Assembly: GCA_951812395.1 (NCBI GenBank)
Contig: CATOSD010000001.1
Location: forward strand, 1,709,108 to 1,773,107
Origin: an uncultured Dehalococcoidia bacterium
GTDB taxonomy: Bacteria; Chloroflexota; Dehalococcoidia; Lucifugimonadales; CATOSD01
Reading direction: 5' to 3'
DNA: 64,000 nt
The stretch's first letter is position 1; each line of letters begins with the position of its first letter. This document shows, piece after piece, positions 22,796-42,680 of this stretch. The position numbers were made by a program, and so were the translations under genes. The notes under the pieces were generated by a model. The model was not told the DNA's origin. It made no database searches and was given only the letters and a program-made list of their open reading frames with translations.

Positions 22796-22816
22796 TGTAT
22801 GTCAGTGGTGTGGAGA

Positions 22817-25446: not shown

Positions 25447-26058
25447 TTACCCGTAGACCTCCAGCACCAGCTCCTTGCACCGGTCCCCGTTCAGATTCGT
25501 CTGGTCTTGCGGACACGCGGACACCACCGCGATCAGGTCTTCCATGGCCCGGAGCAGCACGTAGTCGCCTGGCTTCGCCACTGACTCGCGCGTGTCACGC
25601 GTCCCCTGCAGGTCGGCGATGGGCGTGTTCTGGAACAGATTGACGGGGTCCGGATAGCCCGGCGGCGAGTAGCCCAGTTCCCTCAACGCGCCGTTCAGAT
25701 TTTCCCGGCAGCTCGGGTGATCCTCGATTCCGAAATCCTCCGAGTACCGCAGGGTGTCGCACGCCGGGGCGAGCAGATCGTGTACCCCGACCGTGTCCTC
25801 TTCCAGCATGAACAACGGCTTGCGCCTGATGCTGAACAGCGGCTGCCCTACCTCCAGCCTGAACTTGCCCAGCTTGCTGCGCGTCTGGCTCGGCGAGAGC
25901 GTCTCGTCTAGCGAGTCCTGCACAAACGCGAACAGGTCGCCCACCTGCGGACCCTGCTCCGCGATCACCTTGAGCCGCTGGCCACGCTGCACCAGCACCC
26001 CCTTGCCCGACTGCACCGGAACTATCACACGCTTAACCGGATTGTCGCTGGTAGTCAT
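25447..26058 (-). CDS. DUF1989 / urea carboxylase-associated family protein
   Basis: The 203-residue product resembles the DUF1989 family, whose members include urea-carboxylase-associated proteins and the carboxyguanidine deiminase subunits CgdA/CgdB of guanidine degradation. Visible marks are GQRLKVIAEQGPQVGDLFAF near the N-terminus, CDTLRYSEDFGIEDHPSCRE (likely metal and catalytic Cys/His region), NLFQNTPI and KPGDYVLLRAMEDLIAVVSA. ATG at 26058 follows AGGAGG. It is the last gene of the arginase-family operon, 11 bases after the ninth ureohydrolase. Assignment to guanidino-compound chemistry is inference from family and position. Confidence 0.75.
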   Translation of the reverse strand: MTTSDNPVKRVIVPVQSGKGVLVQRGQRLKVIAEQGPQVGDLFAFVQDSLDETLSPSQTRSKLGKFRLEVGQPLFSIRRKPLFMLEEDTVGVHDLLAPACDTLRYSEDFGIEDHPSCRENLNGALRELGYSPPGYPDPVNLFQNTPIADLQGTRDTRESVAKPGDYVLLRAMEDLIAVVSACPQDQTNLNGDRCKELVLEVYG

Positions 26059-26069
26059 GCCGTCCCTCC

Positions 26070-27065
26070 TTACTCGTCGACGTCGAAGACCTTGGGGCCG
26101 ATGATTCCCAGAATGAACTGCGGCGCTAGCATGTTGGAGCGGTCCGTCGGGTCCAGCCGCGGAGACGTCTCGCAGAAGTCCATCGAGCCAATCGGGAATT
26201 TGGACAGTTCCCAGAGCATTCGCATCGCCATCATGGGCGTTATCGCCGCGAACACCGGCGAACCCGTTCCGGGCGAAAACCCCGAGTCCACCACGTCGAT
26301 GTCCATGCTCAGGTATATGTAATCGCAGCCGTCGATCGCCAGTTCCCCCGCCCGGCGCGCCACCTCGACAGGCCCCATATCCTGGACGTCCAGCCCTGTG
26401 AACACCGTCGCGCCGTTCCGCTTGATCGTGTCCGCCTGCTCGGCGTTCACGTACCCGTCGATGCCAATCCACACCATGTTCTTGGGTGATACCACCTCGA
26501 TCTCCGAGATGCGGCGGGCATTGGTGCCGTTGCTGTGCCTGCCGAACAGCGGCGTGATGTCCGTAAAGTCCAGGTGCCCGTCGATGTGGATGTATCCCAC
26601 CCGCACGTTGGGATTCAGTTCGGCAGCCGCCCTGGTGAAGCCCAGGCAGGAAGGGTAGCCCACAAAGTGGTCGCCCCCCAGGCAGACGGAGAACCCGCCC
26701 CGCTTCACCACCTCGTACACTCCGCCGGCCATCCCCTCCACGGCCCTGTCCATGTCAGTCGGGTACGAGTTGTAGTCGCCCACGTCCACCAGCTTGCTTT
26801 CAGGGGGAAGACTCAGCCGGCTGCCCGAGCCCACGTGGATCAGGCCGCCGTCGCCGGCGGGCCGCAGCTTGTCCGCCAACACCTGCGACCCCTCGCGGAT
26901 GCCGCGCGGTCCGTACCTGGCGCCCGCTCGGTGCCCGTGCGTGGAGTCGTGCGGCGCCCCTCCAATTGCCACCATGCCGGGCCTGATGTCATCGAAGTTC
27001 GCCTGGGGAGACTTGAGGAACGTCGTCGATCCGGAGTACCAGGGAACTGCCTGTTCTGTAGTCAT
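26070..27065 (-). CDS. Arginase/agmatinase-family ureohydrolase, paralogue 1 (metal ligands intact)
   Basis: The 331-residue product belongs to the ureohydrolase superfamily, which hydrolyses guanidino or formimino groups with a two-metal centre. The ligands are in place: GGDH (H133), DGHLD (D162, H164, D166), DID (D255, D257), and E299 in the CETSP segment. The usual DAH is DGH here. The N-terminal WYSGSTTFLKSP and the GGAPHDSTHGHRAGARYGP loop are shared with paralogues 2 and 4. The ATG at 27065 has GGAGGGT upstream, and only 3 bases separate it from paralogue 2. Substrate unknown; agmatine, guanidinobutyrate or guanidine are all possible in this family. Confidence 0.88.
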   Translation of the reverse strand: MTTEQAVPWYSGSTTFLKSPQANFDDIRPGMVAIGGAPHDSTHGHRAGARYGPRGIREGSQVLADKLRPAGDGGLIHVGSGSRLSLPPESKLVDVGDYNSYPTDMDRAVEGMAGGVYEVVKRGGFSVCLGGDHFVGYPSCLGFTRAAAELNPNVRVGYIHIDGHLDFTDITPLFGRHSNGTNARRISEIEVVSPKNMVWIGIDGYVNAEQADTIKRNGATVFTGLDVQDMGPVEVARRAGELAIDGCDYIYLSMDIDVVDSGFSPGTGSPVFAAITPMMAMRMLWELSKFPIGSMDFCETSPRLDPTDRSNMLAPQFILGIIGPKVFDVDE

Positions 27066-27068
27066 GGC

Positions 27069-28076
27069 CTACCCTCCTCGCAGGGGCGTCACGTCGAAGA
27101 TCCTCGGCGCAATTATTCCCAGCAGAAGCTCGGTTGACATCATGATGGAGCGCTCGGACGAGTCTATCCTCGGCGCCACCTCAACGATGTCCATGGCCGC
27201 TATGGGATACTTCCGCACCTCCTGGAGCATCTGAAGGCATATCTGGGGTGTTATCGCGTCGTTGACCACCGATCCCGTCGCCGGGAAGAAGCCCGTGTCG
27301 ATGAAGTCGATGTCCAGCGTCATATAGATGAAGTCTGTCCCGTCGGCGGCGTGCTCCGCCGCCCTGCGGGCGATCTCCACCGGCCCCTGCTCGTGAACGT
27401 CCAGGGCGGTGAACACCTTGCCGCCGTTCTTCTCGATGAGCGTGATCTGGTCTTCGTCAACCCAGCCGTGTATGCCGATCCACGCCATGTTCGGGTGTGA
27501 GATCACGTCGATCTCCGAAATGCGCCGAGCGTTCGACCCCTGGTTGTACCTGCCCCACACCGGGTTCACGTCGCCGTAGTCCAGGTGGCCGTCGAAGTGG
27601 ATGTAACCGATCTTGACGTTGGGATCGGCCTCCGCCACCGCCCGCGTGTAACCCAGGCACGACGGATAGCTGATGTAGTGGTCGCCGCCCATGCACACCG
27701 AGAAGCCGCCCCGCCGCACCACCTCGGCCACCCCTCCAGCGATTCCCCCTATCGATTTCACCACGTCCGTGGGATAAACGTTGAAGTCGCCCACGTCCAC
27801 GAGCCTGCTTTCCGAGGGGAGCGTCAGCCTCACGCCGGTGCTCAGATCCAGCAGGCCGCCGTCCCCCGTGTTTTCGAGCCGCTCGGTGAACGCCAGCGAC
27901 CCCTCCCGGATGCCCCGGGGGCCCATGCGCGTCCCGAAGCGGCTCGCGTGAGTGCTGTCGTGCGGCGCGCCGCCCACGACCACCATGCCCGGCTCGACCC
28001 GGTCAAAGCCGACCAGCGGCGACTTCAGGAAGGTCCGCGCCCCCGAAAACCAGGGCAGTGTCTCTGCTGTAGTCAT
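27069..28076 (-). CDS. Arginase/agmatinase-family ureohydrolase, paralogue 2 (metal ligands intact)
   Basis: The 335-residue product aligns without gaps to paralogue 1 over most of its length. Ligands are intact: H133 (GGDH), D162/H164/D166 (DGHLD), D255/D257 (DID) and E299 (VEVAP). The substrate-loop region GGAPHDSTHASRFGTRMGP is close to that of paralogue 1, so the two may share substrate class or form a mixed oligomer. It lies 26 bases after paralogue 3 with GGGGGTGA before the ATG at 28076. Confidence 0.88.
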   Translation of the reverse strand: MTTAETLPWFSGARTFLKSPLVGFDRVEPGMVVVGGAPHDSTHASRFGTRMGPRGIREGSLAFTERLENTGDGGLLDLSTGVRLTLPSESRLVDVGDFNVYPTDVVKSIGGIAGGVAEVVRRGGFSVCMGGDHYISYPSCLGYTRAVAEADPNVKIGYIHFDGHLDYGDVNPVWGRYNQGSNARRISEIDVISHPNMAWIGIHGWVDEDQITLIEKNGGKVFTALDVHEQGPVEIARRAAEHAADGTDFIYMTLDIDFIDTGFFPATGSVVNDAITPQICLQMLQEVRKYPIAAMDIVEVAPRIDSSERSIMMSTELLLGIIAPRIFDVTPLRGG

Positions 28077-28102
28077 GAATCACCCCCGGAATGGATGGGC
28101 CT

Positions 28103-29104
28103 TCAGGCCGTGCCCATGATGCGCGGATAGATGAACCTCAGAATCAGGTGAACGCCGAACCGCTGCCCGGTCTTTCCCAGCCCGTCGACCTCGATGATCG
28201 GGTTCAGCCCGCACAGGTCGAGCGCACCCACCTTGGTGTGCGTGAGCACGTCCATGGCCTCCCACAGGTCGATGTTTCTCATGCCGTCGAACGACGGCGC
28301 CGCCGTCCCGGCCACATATCCACCGTCCAGCACGTCGAGATCGACGCTCAGGTAGATGGAATCGCAGCCGTCGCCCGCCAACTCCGCCGCCTGTCGTGCG
28401 ACCGCCGATATCCCCTGGCTCCTCACGTCCGCCAGCGTGAACACGTTCAGCCCCAGCTCCCGCGCCATCTCCCACTGCTCGGAGCGGATGTAGCCGTTGG
28501 CGCCTACCCACACCATGTTCCTGGCCTCCGCCATGCCGCCGTCCAGTATGCGGCGCGCCGTCGCCCCCCTCCACACTCTGCCCCACGCCGGATCCTCGTC
28601 CCCCAAGTCTAGCTGGCTGGAGAACTGGATGTACCCGATCTTCGAACCACCGCGTTCCAGCACCGCGTCCTTGAAGCCCTGCACCAGCGGAAACGTGATG
28701 AAGTGGTCGCCGCCCATGATGACCGGAAGCGCTCCGGTGCGCGCGATCTGGTACATCGACTCCCGCAGCGAGGCCCGGTTCTTGTCCCACTCTATTGCGT
28801 ACACCGCAAGGTCGCCCAGGTCTCTGAGACTCTCCCGCACGCGCTCCGGGTTCACCCTTTCGCGGCTGTTTATCTCCACCGCCCCGGAGTCACGACTCTC
28901 CATGTGCGGGGCATAGTAGTTCGACGTCTCCCGGTACGCCCGCGGCCCGAACCTCGCCCCGATGCGCGACGTCGTGGACATGTCGTAGGGTACCCCCGCC
29001 ACCGCCACATGCCCCTCTCCCAGGTCCGCCGTGGTGGAGGCCGGCGCTCTCACGAACGTGAGTATCCCCGCCGTTCTCGGCAGCGGCTCCTTCCTCAGTG
29101 GCAT
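28103..29104 (-). CDS. Arginase-family paralogue 3 (DxHxD degenerated to SSQLD)
   Basis: This 333-residue protein keeps the fold and GGDH (H134) and DLD (D255, D257), but the central metal motif is SSQLD at 162-166, so the first Asp and the His are Ser and Gln. The late glutamate is also replaced (CGLNP, G299). Because two bridging ligands are missing, normal two-metal hydrolysis is doubtful. It shares FSSQLDLGDEDP and WRGATARRILDGG with paralogue 5. The whole frame is intact with a good ribosome binding site, so it is kept by selection rather than decaying. It may be a non-catalytic partner subunit. Confidence 0.87.
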   Translation of the reverse strand: MPLRKEPLPRTAGILTFVRAPASTTADLGEGHVAVAGVPYDMSTTSRIGARFGPRAYRETSNYYAPHMESRDSGAVEINSRERVNPERVRESLRDLGDLAVYAIEWDKNRASLRESMYQIARTGALPVIMGGDHFITFPLVQGFKDAVLERGGSKIGYIQFSSQLDLGDEDPAWGRVWRGATARRILDGGMAEARNMVWVGANGYIRSEQWEMARELGLNVFTLADVRSQGISAVARQAAELAGDGCDSIYLSVDLDVLDGGYVAGTAAPSFDGMRNIDLWEAMDVLTHTKVGALDLCGLNPIIEVDGLGKTGQRFGVHLILRFIYPRIMGTA

Positions 29105-29171
29105 GATGCTCCTCCCATGAACACGTCGCGCTGCGCCCCGTATTTCCCTCGTCGCCTGACGGATCTGCTGC

Positions 29172-30158
29172 TTACAGCGTGTCGAACACCTTCGGCGTAA
29201 TCAGCCGCAGCAGCGACTCTGCCGCCATCCTGGACGTGCGCCCGGAGTGGTCCAGCGCGGGTGAGTTCTCCACCAGGTCCATCGCGCCAATCGGGTACTT
29301 CGCCAGTTCGTCCAGTATCTTGAGCAGGTCCATAGCCGTCAGCGCGCCCATCGTCACCGACCCCGTTCCATTGGAAAACCCCGCGTCTATCACGTCGATA
29401 TCGAAGCTCATGTAGATGACGTCGCAGCCCTTGAGCGCCAGCTCCCCTGCCCGCTTCCCAACCTCCGCCGGCCCCATCTCGTGAATGTCCTCGCTCGTGA
29501 AGATGGTCCCCCCGTTTCGCCTTATCGGCTCCACCTGGTTCAGGTTGCAAGGCCCCTGTATGCCAATCCACACCATGCTGCTCGGGTCCATCACGTCGAT
29601 CTCGGATATGCGCCGCGCGTTAGTGCCGTTGTTGTACTTGCCGTTGGGCGGCGACTCGTCCGCGAAGTCCAGGTGCCCGTCGATGTGGATGTATCCCACC
29701 TTGACCCGCGGATTCGCCTCCGCGGCAGCCCGGCAGTACCCCAGGCAGGACGGATACCCCACGTAGTGGTCGCCGCCTAGACACACCGACCAGCCGCCGC
29801 GCCGCACCACCTCCGCGACGCCCCCCGCCATGCCCTCCGTCGCCTTCATCACGTCCGTCGGGTAGCTATTCAGGTCGCCGATGTCCAGCAGGCGCGTTTC
29901 ATCGGGCAGCGCCAGCCTCTTCCCGGTGGATATGTCTAGAAAGCCGTCCGACGACGCGTTTCGCATCTTGTCGAAGATCGGCAGCGATCCCTCTCTCACA
30001 CCCTTGGGGCCAAGCCGTTCGTTGAACCGCTCCCTCATCGCGTGCGGAGCGCCGCTGATGACGACGTTGCCAGGCTGTATGTCTCCGAAGTCCCCCAGCG
30101 GAGCGCGCATGAATGTCGCCGGCCCGGCGAACCAGGGCAGATTCTGTGAAGAAGTCAT
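29172..30158 (-). CDS. Arginase/agmatinase-family ureohydrolase, paralogue 4 (metal ligands intact)
   Basis: The 328-residue product has H131 (GGDH), DGHLD (D160, H162, D164), DID (D253, D255) and the glutamate in VENSP. Compared with paralogues 1 and 2, the N-terminal loop is shorter and different (SGAPHAMRERFNERLGP in place of the DSTHG type), which suggests another substrate. It lies 28 bases after paralogue 5 and 67 bases before paralogue 3, both degenerate copies. ATG at 30158 follows GGAG. Confidence 0.88.
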   Translation of the reverse strand: MTSSQNLPWFAGPATFMRAPLGDFGDIQPGNVVISGAPHAMRERFNERLGPKGVREGSLPIFDKMRNASSDGFLDISTGKRLALPDETRLLDIGDLNSYPTDVMKATEGMAGGVAEVVRRGGWSVCLGGDHYVGYPSCLGYCRAAAEANPRVKVGYIHIDGHLDFADESPPNGKYNNGTNARRISEIDVMDPSSMVWIGIQGPCNLNQVEPIRRNGGTIFTSEDIHEMGPAEVGKRAGELALKGCDVIYMSFDIDVIDAGFSNGTGSVTMGALTAMDLLKILDELAKYPIGAMDLVENSPALDHSGRTSRMAAESLLRLITPKVFDTL

Positions 30159-30186
30159 TTCGCACCTACTCCAAGCCGTGCTCGGC

Positions 30187-31176
30187 CTACGCCCACGCCA
30201 ACACCTTTTCGGACATGAACCTCACCACCAGCCACACCGCGAACCGCTGGCCAGTGGCCCCGGACATCTCCACCGTCGGATTCATGCCCACTACGTCCAG
30301 CGCCCCCACCTTCGTCCGCCTCAGCACGTCGACCGCCTTCAGCAGCTCCACATTCGTGAGTCCGTCGAAGGAAGGCGCGCCGGTCATGGCGACGTACCCG
30401 CCGTCCAGTACGTCGAAATCCACGCTCATGTACACGGCGTCGCAGCCGTCTCCCGCAATCTCGGCCGCCTGCTGGGCGACACGCACGATACCCTCGCGTC
30501 GGATGTCAGCCAGCGTGAACACGTTCAGGTCGAGCTCCTGCGCAAGCTCCCACTGGTCCGTGCGTATGTAGCCGTTCGTACCGACCCACACCATGTTCTT
30601 CGAGTCCACCGTCCCGCCGTCCAGTATCCGGCGCGCCGTCGCGCCCCGCCACACGCTCCCCCACACCGGGTCGGTGTCGCCCAGGTCGAGCTGGCTGGAG
30701 AACTGGATGTACCCGATCTTGGATCCGCCGCGCTCCCGCACCGCATCCCTGAACCCCTCCGCCAGCGGGTACGTGATGAAGTGGTCTCCCCCCAGGATGA
30801 CCGGCAGCGCGCCCGTGCCCGCAATCTGGCGCATCGAGTCTCGCAGGGCGTCCGCCGTCCGGTCCCAGTCCACGGGGAAGACGTTCAGGTCGTCCAGATC
30901 GATCACCCTCACGTTCTCGGGCGACTTCATCCTCTGGCCGGTGGTTATCTCCACCATCTCCCCGCGCTGCAAGTATCCGCCGTAGTAGCCAGAGGTTTCC
31001 CTGATCGCTCGGGGCGCGAACCGCGAGCCTATCCTGGACGTGCAGGAGAGGTCGTACGTCACGCCCGCAATGGCAATCATGCCCTCTTCGAGGTCCTCAA
31101 CGTCACCCTGCGGCGCGCGCATAAACGACATTATGCCCGCGATCCGTAGCTGCTCCTCTCCCTGCCTCAGCGTCAT
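30187..31176 (-). CDS. Arginase-family paralogue 5 (DxHxD degenerated to SSQLD)
   Basis: The 329-residue protein is the closest relative of paralogue 3. H131 of GGDH and DFD near 253 remain, but DxHxD is SSQLD (160-164) and the final glutamate region reads VVGMNPTVEM, again without the expected Glu. It shares the YIQFSSQLDLGD block and WRGATARRILDGGTV with paralogue 3. Start ATG at 31176 has AGGAGGAC upstream. It is likely a non-catalytic or altered-metal subunit. Confidence 0.87.
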   Translation of the reverse strand: MTLRQGEEQLRIAGIMSFMRAPQGDVEDLEEGMIAIAGVTYDLSCTSRIGSRFAPRAIRETSGYYGGYLQRGEMVEITTGQRMKSPENVRVIDLDDLNVFPVDWDRTADALRDSMRQIAGTGALPVILGGDHFITYPLAEGFRDAVRERGGSKIGYIQFSSQLDLGDTDPVWGSVWRGATARRILDGGTVDSKNMVWVGTNGYIRTDQWELAQELDLNVFTLADIRREGIVRVAQQAAEIAGDGCDAVYMSVDFDVLDGGYVAMTGAPSFDGLTNVELLKAVDVLRRTKVGALDVVGMNPTVEMSGATGQRFAVWLVVRFMSEKVLAWA

Positions 31177-31187
31177 TTTGTCCTCCT

Positions 31188-31240
31188 CGGTCCCTTCCCC
31201 CTATACTCCAACATGGTTCCCGCGGAGGCGGGAATCCAGA
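31188..31240 (+). repeat. Partial dispersed repeat and a second hairpin
   Basis: GTCCCTTCCCCCTAT (from about 31189) matches the left arm of the dispersed repeat but lacks the right arm. Just after it TTCCCGC-GGAG-GCGGGAA forms a separate 7-bp hairpin. It lies in the 135-base gap between paralogues 6 and 5. Confidence 0.5.
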
Positions 31241-31311
31241 GGTGGGGTTGGCTCGATGACCCCTTTCCCCATCTCGCTTTAGGGGCGGACCTGTGATCCG
31301 CCCGGCGCGAC

Positions 31312-32289
31312 TCAGCCCCCGAACACCCTCGGCGCGATCAACTCTATGATCGCCTCCGCCGCCAGCCTCTGCGACCGCCCCCGGATGTCCAGGTCCGGCG
31401 CCACCTCAACCACGTCCATCGCCCCGATCTTGTCATGCCGCGATAGCTCCAGCATCAGCGCCAGCAACTCGGCCGGCGTCAGCCCTCCGATGATCACGTC
31501 CCCAGTCCCCGACGCAAACCCGGAGTCCACCACGTCGATGTCCAGGCTTACGTAAATCGCGTCGCACCCGTCACCCGCCGCATCCACCGCCCGCTGCGCC
31601 GTTGCCTCGATCCCTTCGTCCTTCACGGCGTCCGCGGTGATGACCGTGGCTCCCGAGTCCTGCGCAAGCTCCCACTCCCGGTACGGGATGTATCCCTGCG
31701 TCCCCACGAAGGCGATGTTCTTCCCCTCCACCAGCCCGCCGTCAAGGATGCGCCGCACCGTCGCCCCGTGCCAGTCGGTGCCCCACACCGCGTCGCTTTC
31801 CCCCAGATCGAGCTGGCTCGAAAGCTGGATGAGGCCCACGTTGCCGCCGGTCGCGGACTTGAACCCCTCCACCAGCGGATACGTCACGTAGTGATCGCCC
31901 CCCAGCACCACCGGAAACGCGCCCTTTCCCACTATCGCGGATATGGCGTCTCTGCAAGAGGCCAGCGTCCTCGCCAGATCCATCGGGTACACCGGCAGGT
32001 CCCCCAGGTCGATAAGCGTGCCCTCACGCGGCAGACTGATCGTGCGTCCCGTGAGCACGTTCACCATCGACTGCGACGACGATCCCTGCACGTCGAAGAT
32101 GAAATCCGCGCTCGCCTCGCGGATGGACTTCGGTCCGTGCCGCACGCCCTGGCGCGAGCTCGACGTCCCGTCGTGCGTCACCGACGCCACGGCTACCGCG
32201 CCGGCGTTCAGCCCGTCTACGTCGCCTCTCGGCGCCCTGGCGAACGTGTTGATGCCCGCGAAGGATGGCAGTAGATCTCTTTCGTACAT
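31312..32289 (-). CDS. Arginase-family paralogue 6 (SSQLD, other ligands kept)
   Basis: The 325-residue protein has GGDH (H133) and SSQLD (157-161), so it lost the same Asp and His as paralogues 3 and 5. It keeps DIDVVDSGFASGTG and the glutamate in VEVAPDLD, which those two lost or changed. It is therefore an intermediate state. The N-terminal loop (VTHDGTSSSRQGVRHGP) is like that of the intact group. ATG at 32289 follows AAGGAGGAG. The 103-base gap upstream holds a dispersed repeat. Confidence 0.87.
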   Translation of the reverse strand: MYERDLLPSFAGINTFARAPRGDVDGLNAGAVAVASVTHDGTSSSRQGVRHGPKSIREASADFIFDVQGSSSQSMVNVLTGRTISLPREGTLIDLGDLPVYPMDLARTLASCRDAISAIVGKGAFPVVLGGDHYVTYPLVEGFKSATGGNVGLIQLSSQLDLGESDAVWGTDWHGATVRRILDGGLVEGKNIAFVGTQGYIPYREWELAQDSGATVITADAVKDEGIEATAQRAVDAAGDGCDAIYVSLDIDVVDSGFASGTGDVIIGGLTPAELLALMLELSRHDKIGAMDVVEVAPDLDIRGRSQRLAAEAIIELIAPRVFGG

Positions 32290-32303
32290 GGCTCCTCCTT
32301 ATT

Positions 32304-32344
32304 GTCCCTTCCCCCTCGCAGGGGGAAGGTTAGGATGGGGGTGA
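32304..32344 (+). repeat. Dispersed palindromic intergenic repeat, copy 2
   Basis: Nearly identical to copy 1: inverted repeat CCTTCCCCC-TCG-CAGGGGGAAGG with the tail GTTAGGATGGGGGTGA. It sits between paralogues 7 and 6 inside the ureohydrolase operon. Confidence 0.85.
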
Positions 32345-32392
32345 AGGCCCCTTGTTCAGGCTCGCCTCATCAAATCTGAACAGTTTCACCCT

Positions 32393-33367
32393 CTATGCCT
32401 GTCTCCTCAGGCTCACTCCCGCCAGAAAAGCCAGGAGCAGCCCCGCCGCGACTCTCGCCGCCGTCTCTTCCTCATCCAGATACGTGTAGAAGTCCACGAA
32501 GTCGAGCGCGGCCACTTTGGGCTCCTGGCCCAGTATGTACATGGCCTCCGCCATGTCCTCGCCCGAAATGCCGCCGGAAGTCGCCATCCTGGATATGGAC
32601 GCCAGCGGCAGGTCCAGCGCGCTCCCGTCGACCGTGACGTACACCGCGTCCGTCCCATCCGTGGCCGCCGCCACAGCCCTTCCGATGACTGACTCGATCC
32701 CCTCTCTCCGCACCTCGCGCGCGCTGACGATGGTCACGCCGTTGTCTACGGCGTACTGGTGCTCCGCCTGCGTTCCCACAAACCCGTGCACCCCGACCTG
32801 CGCCACGTTCCTGCCCTCGATGCCGGCCTCCGACTCCAGGATCGCCCTCATCGGCGTGAAGTCCGTCGGGCCGCCCTCGTCCAGGCTGCGCATGTCGCTC
32901 CGCGAGTCGAAGTGAACCATGCCCAGCTTCCTGCCCGTGGCCCTGGCATACGAGGTTGCCGTCAGCCACGTGACCGCCCCCGCGCCGCCCAGCACGACCG
33001 GGATGTACGACGAGTTGGCCTCGAACAGCGCCGGAAGCGTGGCCTCCATCCGCCGGATGTTCTCATCCACGAACGTCTGGTGTATCGACACGTCGCCGAC
33101 GTAGCGTACTTTCAGCCCCTGCACGTCGACGCCGTAGTCGGGATTGAACGTCGTAAAGTGGACAAACGCCCGTCTGATGTTGTTCGGCGTCTCGGTGAGC
33201 ACCGAGTCGACTATCGTCGACGTGTCCATCGGCGCCCCGATGATGCCCACGTCGATCTCCTCCTCGAAGTCCCACTCCGTTATCCAGTTGCTGACCCTTC
33301 GTTCGTCCCGGCCCTCGGTCTCCGAGAGCACCACAAGCTGCGGAGGGTCCAGATATTCGAGATTCAA
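32393..33367 (-). CDS. Arginase-family paralogue 7 (all metal sites lost)
   Basis: The 324-residue protein keeps the arginase fold outline but every ligand motif is altered. GGDH is GGAG (127-130), DxHxD is DSRSD (154-158, His to Arg), DxD is DGS, and the final glutamate is Asp (VDFYT). It cannot be a classical ureohydrolase. The N-terminus (EYLDPPQLV, NWITEWDFEEEIDVGI) groups it with paralogues 8, 10 and 11. The start is a TTG at 33367 with GGAGGA upstream, 18 bases after paralogue 8. I read it as a pseudoenzyme partner of paralogue 8. Confidence 0.85.
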   Translation of the reverse strand: MNLEYLDPPQLVVLSETEGRDERRVSNWITEWDFEEEIDVGIIGAPMDTSTIVDSVLTETPNNIRRAFVHFTTFNPDYGVDVQGLKVRYVGDVSIHQTFVDENIRRMEATLPALFEANSSYIPVVLGGAGAVTWLTATSYARATGRKLGMVHFDSRSDMRSLDEGGPTDFTPMRAILESEAGIEGRNVAQVGVHGFVGTQAEHQYAVDNGVTIVSAREVRREGIESVIGRAVAAATDGTDAVYVTVDGSALDLPLASISRMATSGGISGEDMAEAMYILGQEPKVAALDFVDFYTYLDEEETAARVAAGLLLAFLAGVSLRRQA

Positions 33368-33385
33368 GGCATTCCTCCTTCGAAA

Positions 33386-34363
33386 CTACCTGTACACCCT
33401 CTGCTTCCGCTCGTTCACTCCCGTCAGGAAGCTCATGATGATGTTGACCGCCAGCTTGGACGTAACGTCCCGCACATCCTTGATGCAGTCGATCTCAACC
33501 AGATCCATCACCTTCACCTTCGGATGGCGGCCCAGCAGGTACATCGCCTCCAGTATCTCGTGCGAGTCCAGGCCCCCCGGAGCCTCGCCGCCGGTCCCCG
33601 GTCCCCACGGCGTGTCCATAACGTCGATGTCCAGCGAAATGTAGATCGAGTCCGTGCCGTCCGAGGCCTTGTCCAGCGCCTCCTTGATGATGTCCCGTAT
33701 TCCCCGCCTCCGCACCTGCGCCGACGGGTACAGGCTTATCCCGTGCCCCTTGTTGAACTCGAACAGCTCCGACGACCCCAGGAAGCCGTGGAACCCGATC
33801 TGCACCGCGTTGTTCCCGTCCAGGTGTCCGCCCTCCAGCAGCTGCCGGAACGGCGTGCCCGACCCCGGACCGTTCGTGCGCCAGTCCCTCGTGTCCGGGT
33901 GGGCGTCGAAGTCGATCAACCCCACAGTCTCGCTTCGCGCGCCCTTGAACGCCCGGAACGAGGGCGCAGCCACCGAGTGGTCCCCGCCCAGCACAATCGG
34001 CACAAACCCCGAGTCGATGTTGTACACGTCAGTCAGGGCATTCTCGATGTTCTCGTGGCACCGGTACACGTTCGTTGGGTGCATCGCCACGTTCCCGATG
34101 TCCCTCACCTTCAGGTCCACCGGGTCGGTGTCGAAGTTTGCGTTTCGGGTGGCGAACCGGCGCAGAATCTGCCGGATCACGTTGGGCGCTGCCGCCTCGC
34201 CCGTGTAGCCGTAGGGTGCGCCTATGATCGCCGCGTCTATCGACTCTTCATAGTCCCACGGCGTAATCCAGTTGCTCAGCATGTTGTAATGCTGAATCGG
34301 GCGCGTCTTCGTAATCACCGGAGGTGGCAGCATAAGCTCTACCCTGCCGTTCTCAGGAGCCAT
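33386..34363 (-). CDS. Arginase/agmatinase-family ureohydrolase, paralogue 8 (canonical motifs)
   Basis: The 325-residue product has the textbook motifs: GGDH (H129), DAHPD (D153, H155, D157), DIDVMD and a glutamate in VEIDC. It differs from paralogues 1-6 in the N-terminus (NWITPWDYEESIDAAIIGAP) and in a longer loop after DAHPD, GPGSGTPFRQLLEGG, which suggests a different substrate. I use the ATG at 34363, which has AGGAGG 5-6 bases upstream, rather than the earlier in-frame start at 34378. Paralogue 7 follows by 18 bases. Paralogue 11 is its nearest relative. Confidence 0.9.
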   Translation of the reverse strand: MAPENGRVELMLPPPVITKTRPIQHYNMLSNWITPWDYEESIDAAIIGAPYGYTGEAAAPNVIRQILRRFATRNANFDTDPVDLKVRDIGNVAMHPTNVYRCHENIENALTDVYNIDSGFVPIVLGGDHSVAAPSFRAFKGARSETVGLIDFDAHPDTRDWRTNGPGSGTPFRQLLEGGHLDGNNAVQIGFHGFLGSSELFEFNKGHGISLYPSAQVRRRGIRDIIKEALDKASDGTDSIYISLDIDVMDTPWGPGTGGEAPGGLDSHEILEAMYLLGRHPKVKVMDLVEIDCIKDVRDVTSKLAVNIIMSFLTGVNERKQRVYR

Positions 34364-34383
34364 AGGTCCTCCTTCCAATTGCC

Positions 34384-34466
34384 TCCTCTCCCTTGATGGG
34401 AGAGAATTGAGGTGAGGGTGAAACAGTCCCTTCCCCCTCGCAGGGGGAAGGTTAGGATGGGGGTGA
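34384..34466 (+). repeat. Dispersed palindromic repeats, divergent copy and copy 3
   Basis: 34384-34421 is a related but diverged unit (CTCTCCCTTGATGGGAGAG plus GGTGAGGGTGAA). 34426-34466 is a standard copy with the CCTTCCCCC-TCG-CAGGGGGAAGG core. Together they fill the 111-base gap between paralogues 9 and 8. Confidence 0.8.
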
Positions 34467-34474
34467 AGTAGTCC

Positions 34475-35488
34475 CTAGCCCAGATCCAGCTTGTCGAACA
34501 GCCGCGGCGCCAGCACGTTTGTGATTCCCCTGCTCGCAAGCATCACCGTCCGCCCCGAGTGGTCCCACTCCGGCGCCACCTCGCACAGGTCGAAAGCCCG
34601 CAGAGTGTCGTATTCGTTTATGATGCTCATCGCCTGCAGGAACTCCTTGGCCTGTATCCCCTCGAACTCCGGCGCGCCCGTCCCCGGCGACTCCGAAGCG
34701 TCCACCACGTCGATGTCCACGCTCACGTACACCGCGTCTACCCCGTCCGACGCCGCCTCCATGGCCTCCCGGACGATCTCCTCGATGCCGCGCTGCAGTA
34801 TGTTCCGGGACGTCAGCATCCTCAGGTTGTGTTCCTTCTTGAGCTCGTACTGGTCCGTGTTCAGCCCGTAGCCGTTCAGCCCGACCCACACGATGTTCTT
34901 GAAGTCGATCGCCGGGTTTTCGCTGATCCGCCTCACCATCGTCCCGTGCGTATAGCGCCCGCCGATGCTGCCCGTCTCGTCGCGGAAGTCCGTGTGGCTG
35001 TCGAAATGGACGTAGCCCAGCCGCACGCCGTGCTGCCTCTCCACCATCCCCTTGGCAAAGCCGGTGAACGACGGGTACGAGACGTAGTGGTCGCCGCCCA
35101 GCACAATCGGAAAGCCGCCCCTCTTTACCACCTCCGACATCCCCTGGATCACGGAGTCGGTCGTCTTCATCAGGTCCGTGGGATAAATGTTGAAGTCGCC
35201 CAGGTCCGCCAGCTTCAGTTCGTCCTTCAGGCGCAGCGCCTCGCCCGTATCGACGTGAATTCGCGTATTGTCGATAGCGGTCTCGAACATCCCACGGCCG
35301 CCGAGCGAGGCCTCCCGGATCGCCCTCGGACCAAAGCGGGCGCCAACCCTGCCCTGCGGTATGCCGTTGTCGATGGGCACCCCCGCCACCACGGCCAGTC
35401 CCTCCGTAACATCCTCGACCTCGATGCCGGGCGACCTGAAGAACGACACCAGTCCTCCGTAGTAGGGCATCACTTCTCGTTCGTACAT
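34475..35488 (-). CDS. Arginase/agmatinase-family ureohydrolase, paralogue 9 (metal ligands intact), first gene of the array
   Basis: The 337-residue product has H134 (GGDH), DSHTD (D163, H165, D167), DIDVVDASESPGTG and the glutamate in CEVAPEWD. The N-terminal loop reads AGVPIDNGIPQGRVGARFGP. It resembles paralogues 5 and 6 in overall pattern (YYGGLVSFFRSP start) but keeps the catalytic motif they lost. ATG at 35488 follows GGAGG. It is the promoter-proximal gene of the ten-gene run 35488 to 25447. I see no convincing promoter or guanidine riboswitch upstream. Confidence 0.9.
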   Translation of the reverse strand: MYEREVMPYYGGLVSFFRSPGIEVEDVTEGLAVVAGVPIDNGIPQGRVGARFGPRAIREASLGGRGMFETAIDNTRIHVDTGEALRLKDELKLADLGDFNIYPTDLMKTTDSVIQGMSEVVKRGGFPIVLGGDHYVSYPSFTGFAKGMVERQHGVRLGYVHFDSHTDFRDETGSIGGRYTHGTMVRRISENPAIDFKNIVWVGLNGYGLNTDQYELKKEHNLRMLTSRNILQRGIEEIVREAMEAASDGVDAVYVSVDIDVVDASESPGTGAPEFEGIQAKEFLQAMSIINEYDTLRAFDLCEVAPEWDHSGRTVMLASRGITNVLAPRLFDKLDLG

Positions 35489-36667: not shown

Positions 36668-36814
36668 GTCATCGCCTGGGCAGGTACGCGACAGTTCTCC
36701 TCTCAACCACAGCCACCCCCTAGAATTGCCCGAGCCTGAACAACCGCAAAGTATCACCTTGCCGCCACCCTGTCAACGCGCGAGTATGAGCAGACTGGGC
36801 CTTAGGTCTCCGGT

Positions 36815-36843: not shown

Positions 36844-36886
36844 TCCCTTTATGTTGGCCCTACCTGGACAAAGGATGGAATAGGCG

Positions 36887-38265: not shown

Positions 38266-39606
38266 ATGATCGATGTGCCGCTGAAGGTAGACCTTTCAAA
38301 GTCCCTAGCCTACTTCGAGGAGGCGAGCCGCTATTCCCCCGGAGGCACGCCAGACGGCAAGAGCTGGGAGCAGGACCTCTTCTACGTCGAGCGCGCCAAG
38401 GGCAACCGGCTGTGGGACCTCGACGGTAACGAGTACATCGACTACAACGCCGGCGCCGGCCCCATCATCCTGGGCCACTCGCACGACGAGCTCGACCAGG
38501 CCGTGGTCGAGGCCATCTCCACGCGCGGCGTGCAGGTCGCCCAGCCCCACGTGCTCGAGGTCGAGCTGACCAGGAAGCTGCGCGAGATCATCCCCTGCGC
38601 GGACATGACTGCCCTCTGCAATGCCGGCACCGACACCCTCCAGTACGCCGTCCGTATGGCCCGCACCTACACCGGCCGCTGGAAGGTCGTGAAGTTCGAG
38701 GGCGGCTACCACGGATGGGCCGACGGTCTCGCCATCAGCAGCAAGCCCACCCTGGATGAAGCGGGGACTCTCTCGAACCCCAACACGGTCGCCGACACCT
38801 CCGGAGTGCTTCCGGCCATCCTCGACAATACCATTGTCCTACCCTACAACGACCTGGACGCCGCGAGCGAGCGCATAGAAAGGGAGAAGCGCGAAATCGC
38901 GTGCGTCATCGTCGAGCCTATCGTCCACGGCCACGGAATCCTGCCGAAGCCAGGCTTCCTACAGGGACTCCAAGAGCTATGCCAGTCGTGCGACGTGCCG
39001 CTCGTTCTCGACGAGATAATCACCGGATTCAGACACGACCTCGGCGGACTCCAGCGAAAGTGGGAGATCGAGGCCGACATGGCCGTCTACGGCAAGTCCA
39101 TGGCCAACGGCTACGTCATCTCCGCCGTCACCGGCCGCGAGGAGTTCTTATCCACCCTCTCCCCCGGCGGCCCCGCCTTCTTCTCAGGCACCTACAACGG
39201 CAACCCACTTTCGGCAGCCGCTACGCTGAAGACGATTGAGATCCTCGAACGCCCCGGCTTCTACGAGCGCCTCTACGCCATGGGCGACACGCTCAGGGCC
39301 GCCGTCAACGACGCCATCGACGAGCTTGGCCTGAACGCCACCTGCTACGGCTACGGCTCCGTGTGGGGGCTCTACTTCGAAAGGGAGGCTCCCGCCAACT
39401 ACCGCGACATTCTCCGCTACCAGGCCACCGGCGGGATGCGGAAGTTCGAGGCCTACGCCCGCCACATGCTCAACAACGGCATCTTCGTCCAGCCGGCGAG
39501 GGCGGCCCGCAACTACCTGTACGCCGCCCACACCGACGACGACGTCCAGCGCACTGTCGACGCCACCGTCGCCTTCCTCAGAGAGCACCAGTCGGCGCTC
39601 ACTTAG
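38266..39606 (+). CDS. Class III aminotransferase (glutamate-1-semialdehyde aminomutase-like)
   Basis: The 446-residue PLP enzyme looks like fold-type I class III: YSPGGTPDGKSWEQDLFYVE start, NAGTDTLQYAVRMAR near 120, PLP-phosphate GGYHGW near 146, VLDEIITGFR with the conserved Asp (D249), and Schiff-base lysine K277 in YGKSMANGY. It could be a glutamate-1-semialdehyde-type aminomutase or an omega-amino-acid transaminase. No haem genes adjoin, whereas ureohydrolases that release amines lie on both sides, so I favour transamination. ATG at 38266 has GGGGGA upstream. Confidence 0.85.
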   Translation: MIDVPLKVDLSKSLAYFEEASRYSPGGTPDGKSWEQDLFYVERAKGNRLWDLDGNEYIDYNAGAGPIILGHSHDELDQAVVEAISTRGVQVAQPHVLEVELTRKLREIIPCADMTALCNAGTDTLQYAVRMARTYTGRWKVVKFEGGYHGWADGLAISSKPTLDEAGTLSNPNTVADTSGVLPAILDNTIVLPYNDLDAASERIEREKREIACVIVEPIVHGHGILPKPGFLQGLQELCQSCDVPLVLDEIITGFRHDLGGLQRKWEIEADMAVYGKSMANGYVISAVTGREEFLSTLSPGGPAFFSGTYNGNPLSAAATLKTIEILERPGFYERLYAMGDTLRAAVNDAIDELGLNATCYGYGSVWGLYFEREAPANYRDILRYQATGGMRKFEAYARHMLNNGIFVQPARAARNYLYAAHTDDDVQRTVDATVAFLREHQSALT

Positions 39607-39620
39607 AGCCTATCCGACAA

Positions 39621-39705
39621 GTCCCTTCCCCCTCGCAGGGGGAAGCTCAGGATGGGGATGACAAGTCCCTTCCCACTCGCAGGGGGAAGGTCAGGATGGG
39701 GGTGA
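39621..39705 (+). repeat. Two tandem copies of the dispersed palindromic repeat
   Basis: 39621-39661 and 39665-39705 are both units of the CCCTTCCCCCTCGCAGGGGG type, the second with one arm changed (TTCCCACTCGC). They fill the convergent gap between the class III and class IV aminotransferase genes and might end transcription there. Confidence 0.85.
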
Positions 39706-39724
39706 CGTCCCGTAGCCGCCCGCC

Positions 39725-40639
39725 CTACCTCGTCGCCTGCAGCGCCTGGTCGACGATGTCCACACCAACCAGTTCGCTCCAAGCGGCCAGCAGCCGCTTG
39801 CTGACCGGGCCCGGCGCCTCATCCCCTATCCCCCTCCCGTCGATGGTAGCCACCGGCAGAAGTTGATAGATCGAGTTGGTCAAGAATGCCTCGTCGGCCG
39901 TGTAGGCGTCGTACGGCTGCAGGTCCTCCTCCACGACGGGAATTTCGAGCTGCTCCGCCAGATCGAACACCGTCATCCTGGATATGCCCTGCAGGATGCT
40001 CCGGTCGCTGGACGTGCGTATCGCCCCGCCGGAGACGATCATGAAGTTGCCTCCGACGTTCTCCGCGATGTTCCCGTCCTGGTCGAGGAGCACCGGGTAT
40101 GCGTTGGGGTCGATGTCGGCAGCCTGAAGCTGCGCCTGCACGAAGTTGGCCCGGCTGTAGTGCTTGGCCTTCGGGTCCAGCGAATTGGCCGAGTAGCTGC
40201 GAGCCGTCGGAAACACCACCGCGGCCCCGTCCTCGTAATAGCGGGCATGGCCGAAATCTATGGGAAGCGCCGTCACTATCACCGTCGGCGACATGTCTTC
40301 CATGGGCATGCCCTGGCTGTACGAGGGCGACCTCCCCCGCGTCACCACCTGCCTCACCGACCAGTCGCCGCCCGGCGGTCTCAAGCTCTCGTTCCGGCGC
40401 ACCACCTCCTCGGTAACCTCCGCCATCTCCTCCTGCGTCAGGCCGGGGTCGATGCGCGTGTACTGCAGCGAGCGGTAAAGCCGCTCCATGTGCGCCCTCA
40501 ACCGGAATATCTTCCCGTCGAACGTCCTCTCGACGTCGTATATCGAGTCCCCCATGAGGAAACCCCTGTCGAACGGGTCTATCTTCACCTCGCTGTAGGG
40601 CACCCACTCCCCGTTGAAGAACGCTGTAAATTCCTGCAT
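39725..40639 (-). CDS. Class IV aminotransferase (fold-type IV PLP), copy 1
   Basis: The 304-residue product belongs to the branched-chain/D-amino-acid/(R)-amine transaminase group: FFNGEWVPYSEVKIDPFDRG start, GDSIYDVERTF, RLRAHMERLYRSL, Schiff-base lysine in DPKAKHYSRANF (K159), and EDLQPYDAYTADEAFLTNS near the end. Start ATG at 40639 has AGGAGGAG upstream; the open frame begins earlier but without a site. It is the third gene of a set after paralogues 11 and 10, with 45 bases between, so it probably acts on the amine these release. Confidence 0.87.
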   Translation of the reverse strand: MQEFTAFFNGEWVPYSEVKIDPFDRGFLMGDSIYDVERTFDGKIFRLRAHMERLYRSLQYTRIDPGLTQEEMAEVTEEVVRRNESLRPPGGDWSVRQVVTRGRSPSYSQGMPMEDMSPTVIVTALPIDFGHARYYEDGAAVVFPTARSYSANSLDPKAKHYSRANFVQAQLQAADIDPNAYPVLLDQDGNIAENVGGNFMIVSGGAIRTSSDRSILQGISRMTVFDLAEQLEIPVVEEDLQPYDAYTADEAFLTNSIYQLLPVATIDGRGIGDEAPGPVSKRLLAAWSELVGVDIVDQALQATR

Positions 40640-40684
40640 CTTCTCCTCCTGTTCGCAATCCGGCTTCGTGTGCCTCATCGTTAA

Positions 40685-41686
40685 CTACGCATTCGGTCCT
40701 GCCTGCGGGTCGTCCCTGCTCTTGACGCCCGCCAGGAACGCCAGCATCAGCCCCAGGTACGTCCTGGCCACAATCTCCTTAACGTCATTGAATGTGTCGA
40801 CGCCAACCACGTCGAGGACCTGCACCTTGGGATTCCGGCCAATCAGGAATAGCGCATCCTCCAACTCGGTCACGGAAAGCCCGCCCGGTGCGGACGCCAA
40901 CGACGAGCCGCTCGCCGACATCTCCAGCGCGGTGGCGTCGACGCTGACGTAGATTGCGGCCACGTCCTCCCCGACAGTCGCTAAGGCTCTTTCGACCAAC
41001 GGACCCACGCCTTCACGCCGGGCCTGGCGCGCCGTGACCAGCGTGACTCCGCGGTCGGCGGCCCACCGCCGCTCCTCCGGGGAACTGAGGAACCCGTGGC
41101 TGCCGACGTGGAAAACGTTGCTTCCCGACACGCCGACTTCCGAGTCCAGTATGTCGCGGAGCGAGGTGGCGTCGCTGGGGCCACCCTCGGACACCGCGCG
41201 GCTGTCAACCTTGGAGTCGAATTGGATAACGCCTACGCTTTCCTCTCTGGCCCCAGCGAAGGCCCGTACTACGGGCGCCGTCAGCGTGCCATTGCCGCCA
41301 ACGACCAGCGTGACCATTTCCGGGGCCAGCGCGAATAGACCCGAAAACACCGCCTCAATTCGCCGGTGGTTCTCCATCACTTCAGTGACATGGAGCGCCA
41401 CGTCACCGACGTGCCGTACTTTCAGAGACTCGATGTCCACTTCGATGTCCGGGTTGTAGGTCGTGGAGTAAACCATCGCCTTGCGGATAGCGTTCGGCGT
41501 GGAGTCAGCCCCGGTGGGAAGTATGGATCCCTTCGCGATTGGAACGCCAACGATTCCGACGTCGATAGACTCTTCGAAGTCCCACTCGGTAACCCAGTTG
41601 CTGACGCGCCGCTCGTGCTCAGCCTCCCGCTGAGTAACCCGGACGATCTGAGGGGGATTGAGATACTCTATTGCTTGGCGTGCCAT
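40685..41686 (-). CDS. Arginase-family paralogue 10 (all metal sites lost)
   Basis: The 333-residue protein is the nearest relative of paralogue 7. GGDH is GGNG (130-133), DxHxD is DSKVD (157-161), DxD is DAT and the final glutamate is missing (VVGVD). N-terminal EYLNPPQIV and NWVTEWDFEESIDVGIVG are shared with paralogue 7. It follows the intact paralogue 11 by 16 bases and precedes a class IV aminotransferase. The conserved frame and pairing suggest a structural or regulatory subunit rather than a dying gene. Confidence 0.85.
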   Translation of the reverse strand: MARQAIEYLNPPQIVRVTQREAEHERRVSNWVTEWDFEESIDVGIVGVPIAKGSILPTGADSTPNAIRKAMVYSTTYNPDIEVDIESLKVRHVGDVALHVTEVMENHRRIEAVFSGLFALAPEMVTLVVGGNGTLTAPVVRAFAGAREESVGVIQFDSKVDSRAVSEGGPSDATSLRDILDSEVGVSGSNVFHVGSHGFLSSPEERRWAADRGVTLVTARQARREGVGPLVERALATVGEDVAAIYVSVDATALEMSASGSSLASAPGGLSVTELEDALFLIGRNPKVQVLDVVGVDTFNDVKEIVARTYLGLMLAFLAGVKSRDDPQAGPNA

Positions 41687-41702
41687 CTGACCTTCTCACC
41701 CA

Positions 41703-42680
41703 TTATCCGTGCTCGAGGCGGCGCTCTTTGAGCCCTACCAGGAATGCCGCCAACAGGCCGATTGCCATCCGGCTCGTGATGTTCCTAAGGTCCTTTAGCG
41801 GGTCCACTTCCACCAGGTCCAGAGCCTTGACCTTTGGGTGCTTACCTAGCATGTAGACGGCCTCGATGGCCTCCCGCGGCGCCATCCCGCCCGGCGCGGG
41901 AACGCCGGTGCCGGGCGCCGAGGCGTCTTCGATGGCGTCTATGTCGAAGGACACGTAAATCGCGTCCGTGTCTTCGCTCGCCTGGGCTATGGCCTCCTCC
42001 ATCACGGTGTCGACTCCTCGCCGCCAGACCTCCCGCGCCGGAATCTCCCGCACGCCCTTTCGCAGCGCGTACTCGTGCTGCGGAACGGCGGCCAGCGAAC
42101 CGTGAAGGCCGATCTGCACCGCGTTTCGACCCTCGATGTATCCGGCGTCTATGACCTGCCGGAACATCGTGCCGGCAGTCGGCCCGGAGAATGACGGATC
42201 GCCAAGGTCGTTGTGGGCGTCGAAGTCAATCAGGCCTGCCCGTTTGTAGTCATTGCCCTCTCTGAACGCCCTGATGGACGGCGCGGCGATTGCATGGTTG
42301 CCGCCGATGACGACGGGGATGAAGTCCGGGGACTCCTGGTAGAGCTCGGCCAGGCCCTCGCGGATGTTGGAGTGACACGTCAGCACCTCGGTGGGGTGCA
42401 TGCGTATGTCGCCGATGTCGCGTACTTTCAGGTCGCTGAAGTCCACCTCGAAGTCGTGGCTGCGTGAGGCGAACGCGAGAAACGCCTCCCGGATGGCGTT
42501 GGGGCCTTCGCCGGTGCCCTGGAAGTTGCGGTTGAAGTCGAACGGGACGCCGATTATGCCAACGTCTATCTCCTCCTTGAAGTCCCAGGGAGTCACCATC
42601 TCGGAAAGCATGTTCATCTCAGGGCTGATGATCATGCTTCGCGCGAGCTTGAGGCCAGGGGGTATAAGGTGATTTGCCAC
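41703..42680 (-). CDS. Arginase/agmatinase-family ureohydrolase, paralogue 11 (metal ligands intact)
   Basis: The 325-residue product has GGNH (H129 kept, Asp to Asn beside it), DAHND (D154, H156, D158), DIDAIED and a glutamate in VEVDP. The loop GPTAGTMFRQVIDAGYIEG matches paralogue 8. I place the start at the GTG at 42680, which has GGAG upstream and gives the IPPGLKLARS N-terminus comparable with paralogue 8. The longer open frame to 42905 runs through the promoter. It heads a three-gene unit with paralogue 10 and a class IV aminotransferase. Confidence 0.88.
   Translation of the reverse strand: MANHLIPPGLKLARSMIISPEMNMLSEMVTPWDFKEEIDVGIIGVPFDFNRNFQGTGEGPNAIREAFLAFASRSHDFEVDFSDLKVRDIGDIRMHPTEVLTCHSNIREGLAELYQESPDFIPVVIGGNHAIAAPSIRAFREGNDYKRAGLIDFDAHNDLGDPSFSGPTAGTMFRQVIDAGYIEGRNAVQIGLHGSLAAVPQHEYALRKGVREIPAREVWRRGVDTVMEEAIAQASEDTDAIYVSFDIDAIEDASAPGTGVPAPGGMAPREAIEAVYMLGKHPKVKALDLVEVDPLKDLRNITSRMAIGLLAAFLVGLKERRLEHG

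Follow-up and report, generated by a model that had tools for sequence, protein, structure and literature searches.

An eleven-gene ureohydrolase array in a Dehalococcoidia genome probably encodes heteromeric enzymes with metal-free partner subunits

The window analyzed here, a stretch of 64,000 nucleotides on a 2.3-Mb contig of an uncultured Dehalococcoidia bacterium (G000; listed completeness 95.76%, contamination 6.38%), carries 11 intact ureohydrolase-family ORFs in one locus, all on the minus strand and nine of them adjacent (Table 1). An earlier note had described these genes, the nine-gene run and the DUF1989 gene at its end, and had assigned the proteins to the ureohydrolase superfamily. 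All of these features are present, and 11/11 copies pass the PF00491 cut-off in profile searches, with 13 such genes found genome-wide. The window flanks (L041 and L042) contain no additional ureohydrolase. Pairwise protein identity between copies is 17–64%, and DNA identity is at most 74% among the 12 longest inter-copy matches, the maximum being that of U3/U5 over 837 bases. Because of this low identity, and with colinear orthologues in another assembly, a misassembled or recent repeat is ruled out.

Table 1. Genes of the ureohydrolase locus and its neighborhood (positions in the window; percentages are identities to the gene or genome named).
Feature	Position	Strand	Type and metal ligands	Remarks
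DUF1989 gene	25447..26040	-		29 bp after U1, closes nine-gene run; 144.8 bits vs Pfam cut-off 27
U1	26070..27065	-	C, six intact	
U2	27069..28076	-	C, intact	67% to W5 of G083
U3	28103..29104	-	D, degenerate (SSQLD; active-site Glu to Gly)	26 bp upstream of U2; 56% to W4 of G083
U4	29172..30158	-	C, intact	70% to W3 of G083
U5	30187..31176	-	D, degenerate	28 bp upstream of U4; 63% to W2 of G083; predicted fold kept
U6	31312..32289	-	E, degenerate (SSQLD)	69% to W1 of G083
U7	32393..33367	-	B, degenerate (GGAGA, DSRSD, VDGS)	
U8	33386..34378	-	A, intact	HutG-like; 18 bp upstream of U7
U9	34475..35488	-	F, intact	
Class III aminotransferase	38266..39606	+		Glutamate-1-semialdehyde aminomutase-like, below NCBIfam cut-offs; 37% to G071
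Class IV aminotransferase	39725..40678	-		6 bp after U10; 44% to G071-array homologue
U10	40685..41686	-	B, degenerate (GGNGT, DSKVD, VDAT)	Predicted fold kept
U11	41703..42905 (ORF; homology from ~42620)	-	A, intact	16 bp upstream of U10
Second class IV aminotransferase	44239..45165	-		47% to G071 homologue
Importer permease, DppC/OppC type	45768..46700	-		54% to G071
Importer permease, DppB/OppB type	46716..47690	-		55% to G071
SBP_bac_5 solute-binding protein	47844..49559	-		Oligopeptide/opine/nickel-type importer; 31% to G071 homologue

In the tree, the copies split into six supported clades, designated types A–F. The same types recur in two Chloroflexota MAGs, G071 (82% complete; genes V) and G083 (80% complete; genes W), so that the array is not confined to one assembly. 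Gene order is kept there in parts, with A-B and E-D-C in G071 and E-D-C-D-C in G083, the latter colinear with U6–U2 at the identities given in Table 1. A-B and D-C genes are closely spaced, with the gaps of the window listed in Table 1; in the other arrays, ORF coordinates give gaps of 10 bp (V1-V2), 25 bp (V4-V5) and 17 bp (W2-W3), and an overlap of 4 bp (W4-W5). From type E to type D the gap is 135 bp at U6-U5, 172 bp at W1-W2 and 24 bp at V3-V4, so that E lies close to D in only one of the three arrays. In G071, the type D gene V7 comes after type A instead of type C, so that the pairing admits exceptions.

Such copy numbers are rare among relatives, 76/78 of which carry 0–3 ureohydrolase copies. 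Per-genome counts from one further search, capped by how many candidates were scored (6 rather than 13 for G000), do not enter this census. The class and phylum searches covered samples, and G071, which has both B and D, came from the relatives set and has no row in either. Type D occurred in 2/393 genomes of the class sample (G000 and G083), 2/400 of the phylum sample (G000 and G652), 1/3 in the family of G071 and 1/1 in the order of G083, and type B in 1/393 of the class sample (G000). The type B model matched 4/301 phylum genomes (G000, G465, G669 and G514), the last three of which were rejected as carriers, having single intact type-A-like genes. A named-genome search returned 3 loci, with one distant archaeal match (L064, Euryarchaeota, 24% identity). 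Array sharing between orders could also reflect lateral transfer.

The earlier note had treated all 11 copies as enzymes, but five are without needed metal ligands. All six His/Asp residues that ligate the two-metal centre are kept in U1, U2, U4, U8, U9 and U11 (6/11), and two or three of them are missing in U3, U5, U6, U7 and U10 (5/11). SSQLD replaces DxHxD in U3, U5 and U6, and the ligand motifs of U7 and U10 read GGxG, DSR/KxD and VDGS/VDAT. This loss is preserved by type across genomes: with other genomes included, the first DxHxD position changes from Asp to Ser in 9/9 type D/E rows and the GGDH His to Gly in 3/3 type B rows. The active-site Glu is likewise replaced by Gly in 6/6 type D rows. 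Ligand loss goes further in V3 (1/6 kept) and W1 (2/6 kept), and V4 and V7 also lose more. U3, U5, U6, W2 and W4 retain the His, one Asp of DxHxD and both Asp of SxDxD; with four of six ligands, U3, U5 and U6 might therefore bind one metal. At the position of the GGDH His, the present alignment shows Asn in B. subtilis HutG, so that one ligand change alone does not prove inactivity.

The degenerate copies are under coding constraint similar to that of the intact ones. NG86 estimates between genomes, with dS near saturation, gave dN/dS of 0.23/1.95, 0.30/1.18, 0.39/1.50 and 0.33/1.37 for degenerate pairs and 0.23/1.25, 0.26/1.15 and 0.33/1.09 for intact pairs. The remaining three of the ten pairs, taken within a genome, gave 0.29/1.04 and 0.27/0.88 (degenerate) and 0.40/0.84 (intact). 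AF2 models of U5 (mean pLDDT 86.0, pTM 0.88) and U10 (mean pLDDT 85.6, pTM 0.90) show the ureohydrolase fold and match ureohydrolase structures across almost the full length. A special divergence of the N-terminal loops, also suggested earlier, is weak and not clear-cut: mean identity over 55 pairs is 29% before GGDH and 35% after it; within types, the two values are 57/57 for C (3 pairs), 54/70 for D, 45/47 for A and 51/42 for B (1 pair each).

Types C–F form their own clade (support 100/100), separate from GdmH, 9fek and 3nip; GdmH and 9fek make their own 100/100 pair outside it, and MefH alpha and MefH beta are mutually closest rows. The tree left out the split type F gene of G064, in two pieces (L040), the G071 copies L060 and L061, and L085–L087; its alignment retained the ligand columns, and L077_12209 ends at a contig end. 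AU tests reject a clade of type B with MefH beta (p-AU 2.2e-8), a clade of types D and E with MefH beta (p-AU 7.0e-7) and a single origin for all degenerate copies, B, D and E together (p-AU 0.00033). As judged from these phylogenies, ligands were lost separately in B and D/E, and separately from the metformin-hydrolase beta subunit.

The gene neighborhood offers clues to the pathway. An SBP5 protein, two permeases and class III and IV aminotransferases accompany the ureohydrolases both in the window and in G071, and these shared neighbours point to the breakdown of an imported compound with a guanidino or amidino group. The dedicated guanidino- or amidine-compound pathway put forward in the earlier note is thus plausible, although mixed-subunit complexes are favored over eleven distinct enzymes. 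Free guanidine as its substrate gained no specific support: at the gathering threshold, positions 20000-52000 of the window contain no guanidine riboswitch, a cobalamin riboswitch being the sole match, and HypA (PF01155) has no match in G000, G071 or G083, the control having matched in 7/14 genomes. The DUF1989 gene scores below the UAAP cut-offs; the carboxyguanidine deiminase CgdAB consists of two DUF1989 subunits and occurs with guanidine carboxylase. Urease has no match within the window. Elsewhere, there is one strong urease-alpha match in G000 (C2:894238), together with a few weak ones in G000 and G083.

Overall, the locus probably encodes several heteromeric ureohydrolases in which the metal-free paralogues are putative partners of the catalytic ones. 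Several mixed-subunit enzymes are favored over eleven separate ones because five copies have lost ligands yet stay under selection, and mixed-subunit complexes also because the succession of intact and degenerate copies is conserved. Types A, C and F would possess the two-metal centre and be the subunits that split a guanidino or amidino group, while B, D and E, presumably non-catalytic and metal-free with the fold kept, would assemble with intact paralogues into mixed trimers or hexamers and may shape or cap the active sites of these partners. Likely units are A+B (U8+U7 and U11+U10) and C+D (U5+U4 and U3+U2), perhaps plus E (U6). Counting against this reading, neither U9 nor U1 has its own degenerate neighbour, and the searches for a guanidine riboswitch and for HypA gave no match, unlike in the precedents that depend on nickel. 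The SBP5-type importer would take up the substrate, and the ureohydrolase products would pass to the neighbouring class III/IV aminotransferases.

Other explanations have to be weighed against this one. A set of eleven independent homomeric hydrolases that differ in their guanidino or amidine substrate, with the odd residues as adaptations to other chemistry, would agree with the large divergence between copies and with the PF00491 matches of all of them. This is unlikely, given the two or three ligands missing in five copies, the greater losses of the orthologues V3 and W1, the absence of conserved replacement residues from the examined ligand motifs and the additional loss of the active-site Glu in type D. 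Coding constraint that persists without catalytic residues would also be expected of stand-alone binding or regulatory proteins, such as substrate sensors or chaperones, not assembled into enzymes. However, the 324–333 aa of the five degenerate proteins leave no space for an extra domain, the U5 and U10 models are matched by ureohydrolase structures over almost their entire length, and B and D adjoin catalytic paralogues in other genomes also, making this quite unlikely.

The ligands retained in U3, U5, U6, W2 and W4 could make type D/E proteins one-metal enzymes whose site consists of the remaining His and Asp residues, but same-clade V3, V4, V7 and W1 lose additional ligands, and we regard this as very improbable. 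Decaying amplification, with the degenerate copies as dying pseudogenes or an assembly artefact, is hardly credible: a copy number well above that of relatives speaks for it, whereas intact ORFs, orthologues in other assemblies and dN/dS far below 1 speak against it.

Within the heteromeric reading, a bolder version is possible, if doubtful. E-D-C would be a ureohydrolase with three components, in which one catalytic subunit and two different metal-free ones form a heterotrimer that doubles to a hexamer. The array as a whole would be combinatorial, with catalytic subunits sharing or exchanging non-catalytic partners to reach several substrate specificities. If true, conversion of a subunit into a partner through metal-site loss would be a recurrent route in the superfamily, taken five separate times on the present tree, metformin hydrolase included. 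The locus makes testable the gain of essential pseudoenzyme subunits, the interchangeability of partners and the nature of a substrate needing so many. Likewise, counts of PF00491 genes would overcount enzymes.

Among solved structures, formimidoylglutamase HutG (3m1r) is the nearest relative of U8 (177 bits) and U7 (149 bits) by sequence and of U10 by fold. The copies scanned score below the TIGR01227 HutG equivalog cut-off (229.15), the best three of the nine being U9 (172.4), U8 (172.3) and U11 (169.1), and, unlike HutG, type A here has an adjoining degenerate sister, type B. The guanidine hydrolases GdmH (7esr) and 9fek and guanidinopropionase (3nip) are the nearest solved relatives of U4 (111 bits) and U5 (119 bits), but they stand apart from the C–F clade, and the locus has no guanidine riboswitch at the gathering threshold. 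A tandem arrangement is also described for putative Limnocylindrales, which we take to be a Chloroflexota order. Their tandem ureohydrolase genes are said, in the passage cited, to have evolved independently (PMC11399263). Metal-free pseudoenzymes resembling arginase occur in eukaryotes and prokaryotes. Their function is called elusive, they have the ureohydrolase fold without the two-metal centre, and the passage describing them includes no partner array of the kind proposed here (PMC11271267).

The closest parallel is metformin hydrolase, an alpha2beta4 heterohexamer whose beta subunit lacks some metal ligands yet is essential (PMC11399263, PMC11271267). In the passages cited, this composition is termed unprecedented (PMC11399263), the enzyme, described in 2024, is termed the first two-subunit member of the arginase family (PMC11271267), and relatives of the pair are counted at 56 gene pairs across four phyla. 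As in metformin hydrolase (MefH / MetCaCb / MfmAB) and dimethylguanidine hydrolase (DmgH), an intact gene with six ligands adjoins a degenerate one (here U8-U7, U11-U10, U5-U4 and U3-U2), and the degenerate subunit retains the fold, as predicted here for U5 and U10. MefH operons are described as including nickel chaperone genes (PMC11399263), hypA/hypB being the ones expected nearby, in contrast to the HypA result in G000, G071 and G083, and the AU tests place types B and D/E outside the MefH beta lineage. The best reading is a working mode like that of metformin hydrolase in a different lineage, a design that seems to have arisen independently, on two occasions within one genome, and that is common to different orders. 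Whereas MefH and DmgH are each encoded by a gene pair, the present locus appears to have multiplied this design into an 11-gene array.

The earlier note had described eleven ureohydrolase genes in the window, and all eleven ORFs (U1–U11) lie where it had placed them, nine in succession and two further on, all on the minus strand (table below). They account for 11 of the 13 PF00491 genes detected in the genome (G000), and the window is an interior portion of a 2.3-Mb contig. Among the copies, protein identity is only 17–64%, and at the DNA level none of the 12 longest matches exceeds 74%. Across 79 genomes, comprising G000 itself and 78 relatives, ureohydrolase matches number zero to three in 76 of the 78 relatives, five in G064 (two of them resembling pieces of one split gene) and nine in the Chloroflexota MAG G071. 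Nine of the eleven ureohydrolases (all except U2 and U4) were scanned with NCBIfam models, none of which reached its cut-off.

Aligned on the metal-ligand motifs of the superfamily (GGDH, DxHxD and SxDxD), the window copies split into two kinds of protein. The active-site Glu and the full set of six ligands are present in U1, U2, U4, U8, U9 and U11, the intact copies. In U3, U5 and U6, SSQLD stands in place of DxHxD, with two ligands gone, and U7 and U10 have lost three (GGAG/GGNG, DSRSD/DSKVD and VDGS/VDAT). With two or three ligand residues replaced, these five of the eleven copies are, judging from sequence, unable to assemble the usual two-metal centre. The columns were checked against solved enzymes: all six ligands are present in the alpha subunit of metformin hydrolase (MefH) and in every other solved enzyme included, except HutG 3m1r, which has Asn at the first His column. 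MefH beta deviates at five of the six ligand columns in this alignment; the metformin-hydrolase paper counts four replaced residues.

A tree of the window copies with homologues from G071 (L039) and from a second Chloroflexota MAG, G083 (L057, L078, L079), resolves six clades, every one supported: A (U8, U11), B (U7, U10), C (U1, U2, U4), D (U3, U5), E (U6) and F (U9), of which A, C and F are intact. Clade A is sister to B (92/87), and both lie in the HutG portion of the tree (99/94); C–F form their own clade (100/100), also holding three copies from G652, a genome of another class, and D and E are sisters within it (90/95, unstarred). The tree requires five intact/degenerate changes; our reading assigns one each to B, D/E and MefH beta and the other two to G652. 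Topologies uniting B, D and E (p-AU 0.00033), B and MefH beta (p-AU 2.2e-8), or D, E and MefH beta (p-AU 7.0e-7) were rejected.

Features of the window and of related loci
Feature	Genome, locus	Position (strand)	Remark
Nine consecutive ureohydrolases	Window	26070–35488 (-)	
Two further ureohydrolases	Window	40685–42905 (-)	
Cobalamin riboswitch RF00174	Window	22616–22798 (-)	94.7 bits; upstream of next row
Apparent cobalamin uptake and synthesis cluster	Window	~17679–22518	By eye
NAD-dependent epimerase/dehydratase gene	Window	36086–36757 (-)	Directly upstream of U9; apparently continues downstream in other frames (region 35690–36757, by eye)
RecQ-like helicase ORF	Window	50739–53504 (-)	Apparent sigma-factor-like helix-turn-helix stretch within (by eye)
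Type F-like ureohydrolase	G064:C110, L040	2172–3105	Split over two overlapping ORFs, 57 and 50% to U9
Further array	G652:C280, L077	7060–12924	Own degenerate and intact sister pair; array cut off by contig end
Degenerate copy, GADLD	G652, L077	7060–8049	Tree sister of next row
Intact copy	G652, L077	8053–9015	Adjoins previous row
Degenerate copy, GCELG	G652, L077	12209–12924	Truncated by contig end
Tandem pair, all ligands kept	G614, L080	2599–4745	
Tandem pair, all ligands kept	G083:C163, L078	224–2318	
Lone intact type-A-like gene	G465, L085	6324–7379	Adjoins cytosine/purine/allantoin-type permease
Lone intact type-A-like gene	G669, L086	2273–3256	Adjoins branched-chain-type ABC importer

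Gene order recurs in other genomes. The five copies W1–W5 of G083, which shares the class of G000 and is placed by the kinship assignment in a different order, run E-D-C-D-C and correspond one-to-one with U6–U2 (identities 69, 63, 70, 56 and 67%), the tree pairing U6-W1, U5-W2, U4-W3, U3-W4 and U2-W5. This common order may reflect ancient inheritance or lateral transfer. In G071, a solute-binding protein (SBP5) and two permeases precede A-B-(AT-IV)-E-D-C-(AT-III)-(gamma-glutamyltransferase)-A-D, where AT denotes class III or IV aminotransferases; the final pair departs from the A-B and D-C pairing. Those pairs are spaced by 10–28 bp or overlap, and other spacings are mostly larger (U9-U8 96, U7-U6 103 and U4-U3 67 bp), with U2-U1 (3 bp) as the exception. 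Type E lies 24 bp from D in G071, 135 bp away in the window and 172 bp away in G083, so gene order is the main ground for linking it to the D-C pair. In G652, five ureohydrolase ORFs lie at a contig end. Some tandem pairs consist of two intact members, as PMC11271267 likewise reports.

The dN/dS of degenerate pairs falls within the range of intact pairs (ten pairs computed), and because dS is near saturation the claim extends only to values well under 1; one pair, U11-V6, is not one-to-one, V1 and V6 of G071 being jointly sister to U11. AF2 models of U5 (pLDDT 86.0, pTM 0.88) and U10 (pLDDT 85.6, pTM 0.90) adopt the ureohydrolase fold. For U5, Foldseek places guanidinase 9fek and guanidinopropionase 3niq at the top, and metformin hydrolase 8ryi_C ranks ninth; U10 matches HutG 3m1r best, followed by metformin hydrolase.

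SBP5-type import, AT-IV and AT-III, together with the gamma-glutamyltransferase of G071, point to an imported guanidino or amidino substrate that is amino-acid-like or peptide-like. Free guanidine gained no specific support. What type A acts on may be hinted at by the transporters beside the type-A-like genes of G465 and G669.

Metformin hydrolase, according to PMC11399263 and PMC11271267, is an alpha2beta4 heterohexamer in which alpha alone binds metal and beta is degenerate yet essential. The window array holds the same ingredients, intact and degenerate paralogues, and from this likeness the best explanation would be that types B, D and E serve as non-catalytic partners of A and C, possibly also of F. 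The E-D-C order, two degenerate genes followed by an intact one, parallels the one-alpha-two-beta trimer of MefH and suggests, by analogy, an alpha-beta-beta' make-up for its product. Among the matches listed in the literature searched on Chloroflexota arrays and on ureohydrolases in tandem, as heteromers or as pseudoenzymes, only the metformin-hydrolase papers came close; in one sentence, PMC11399263 mentions that putative Limnocylindrales have a tandem arrangement of their own. Set against metformin hydrolase, the window array would share its principle, has a separate origin and is far larger.
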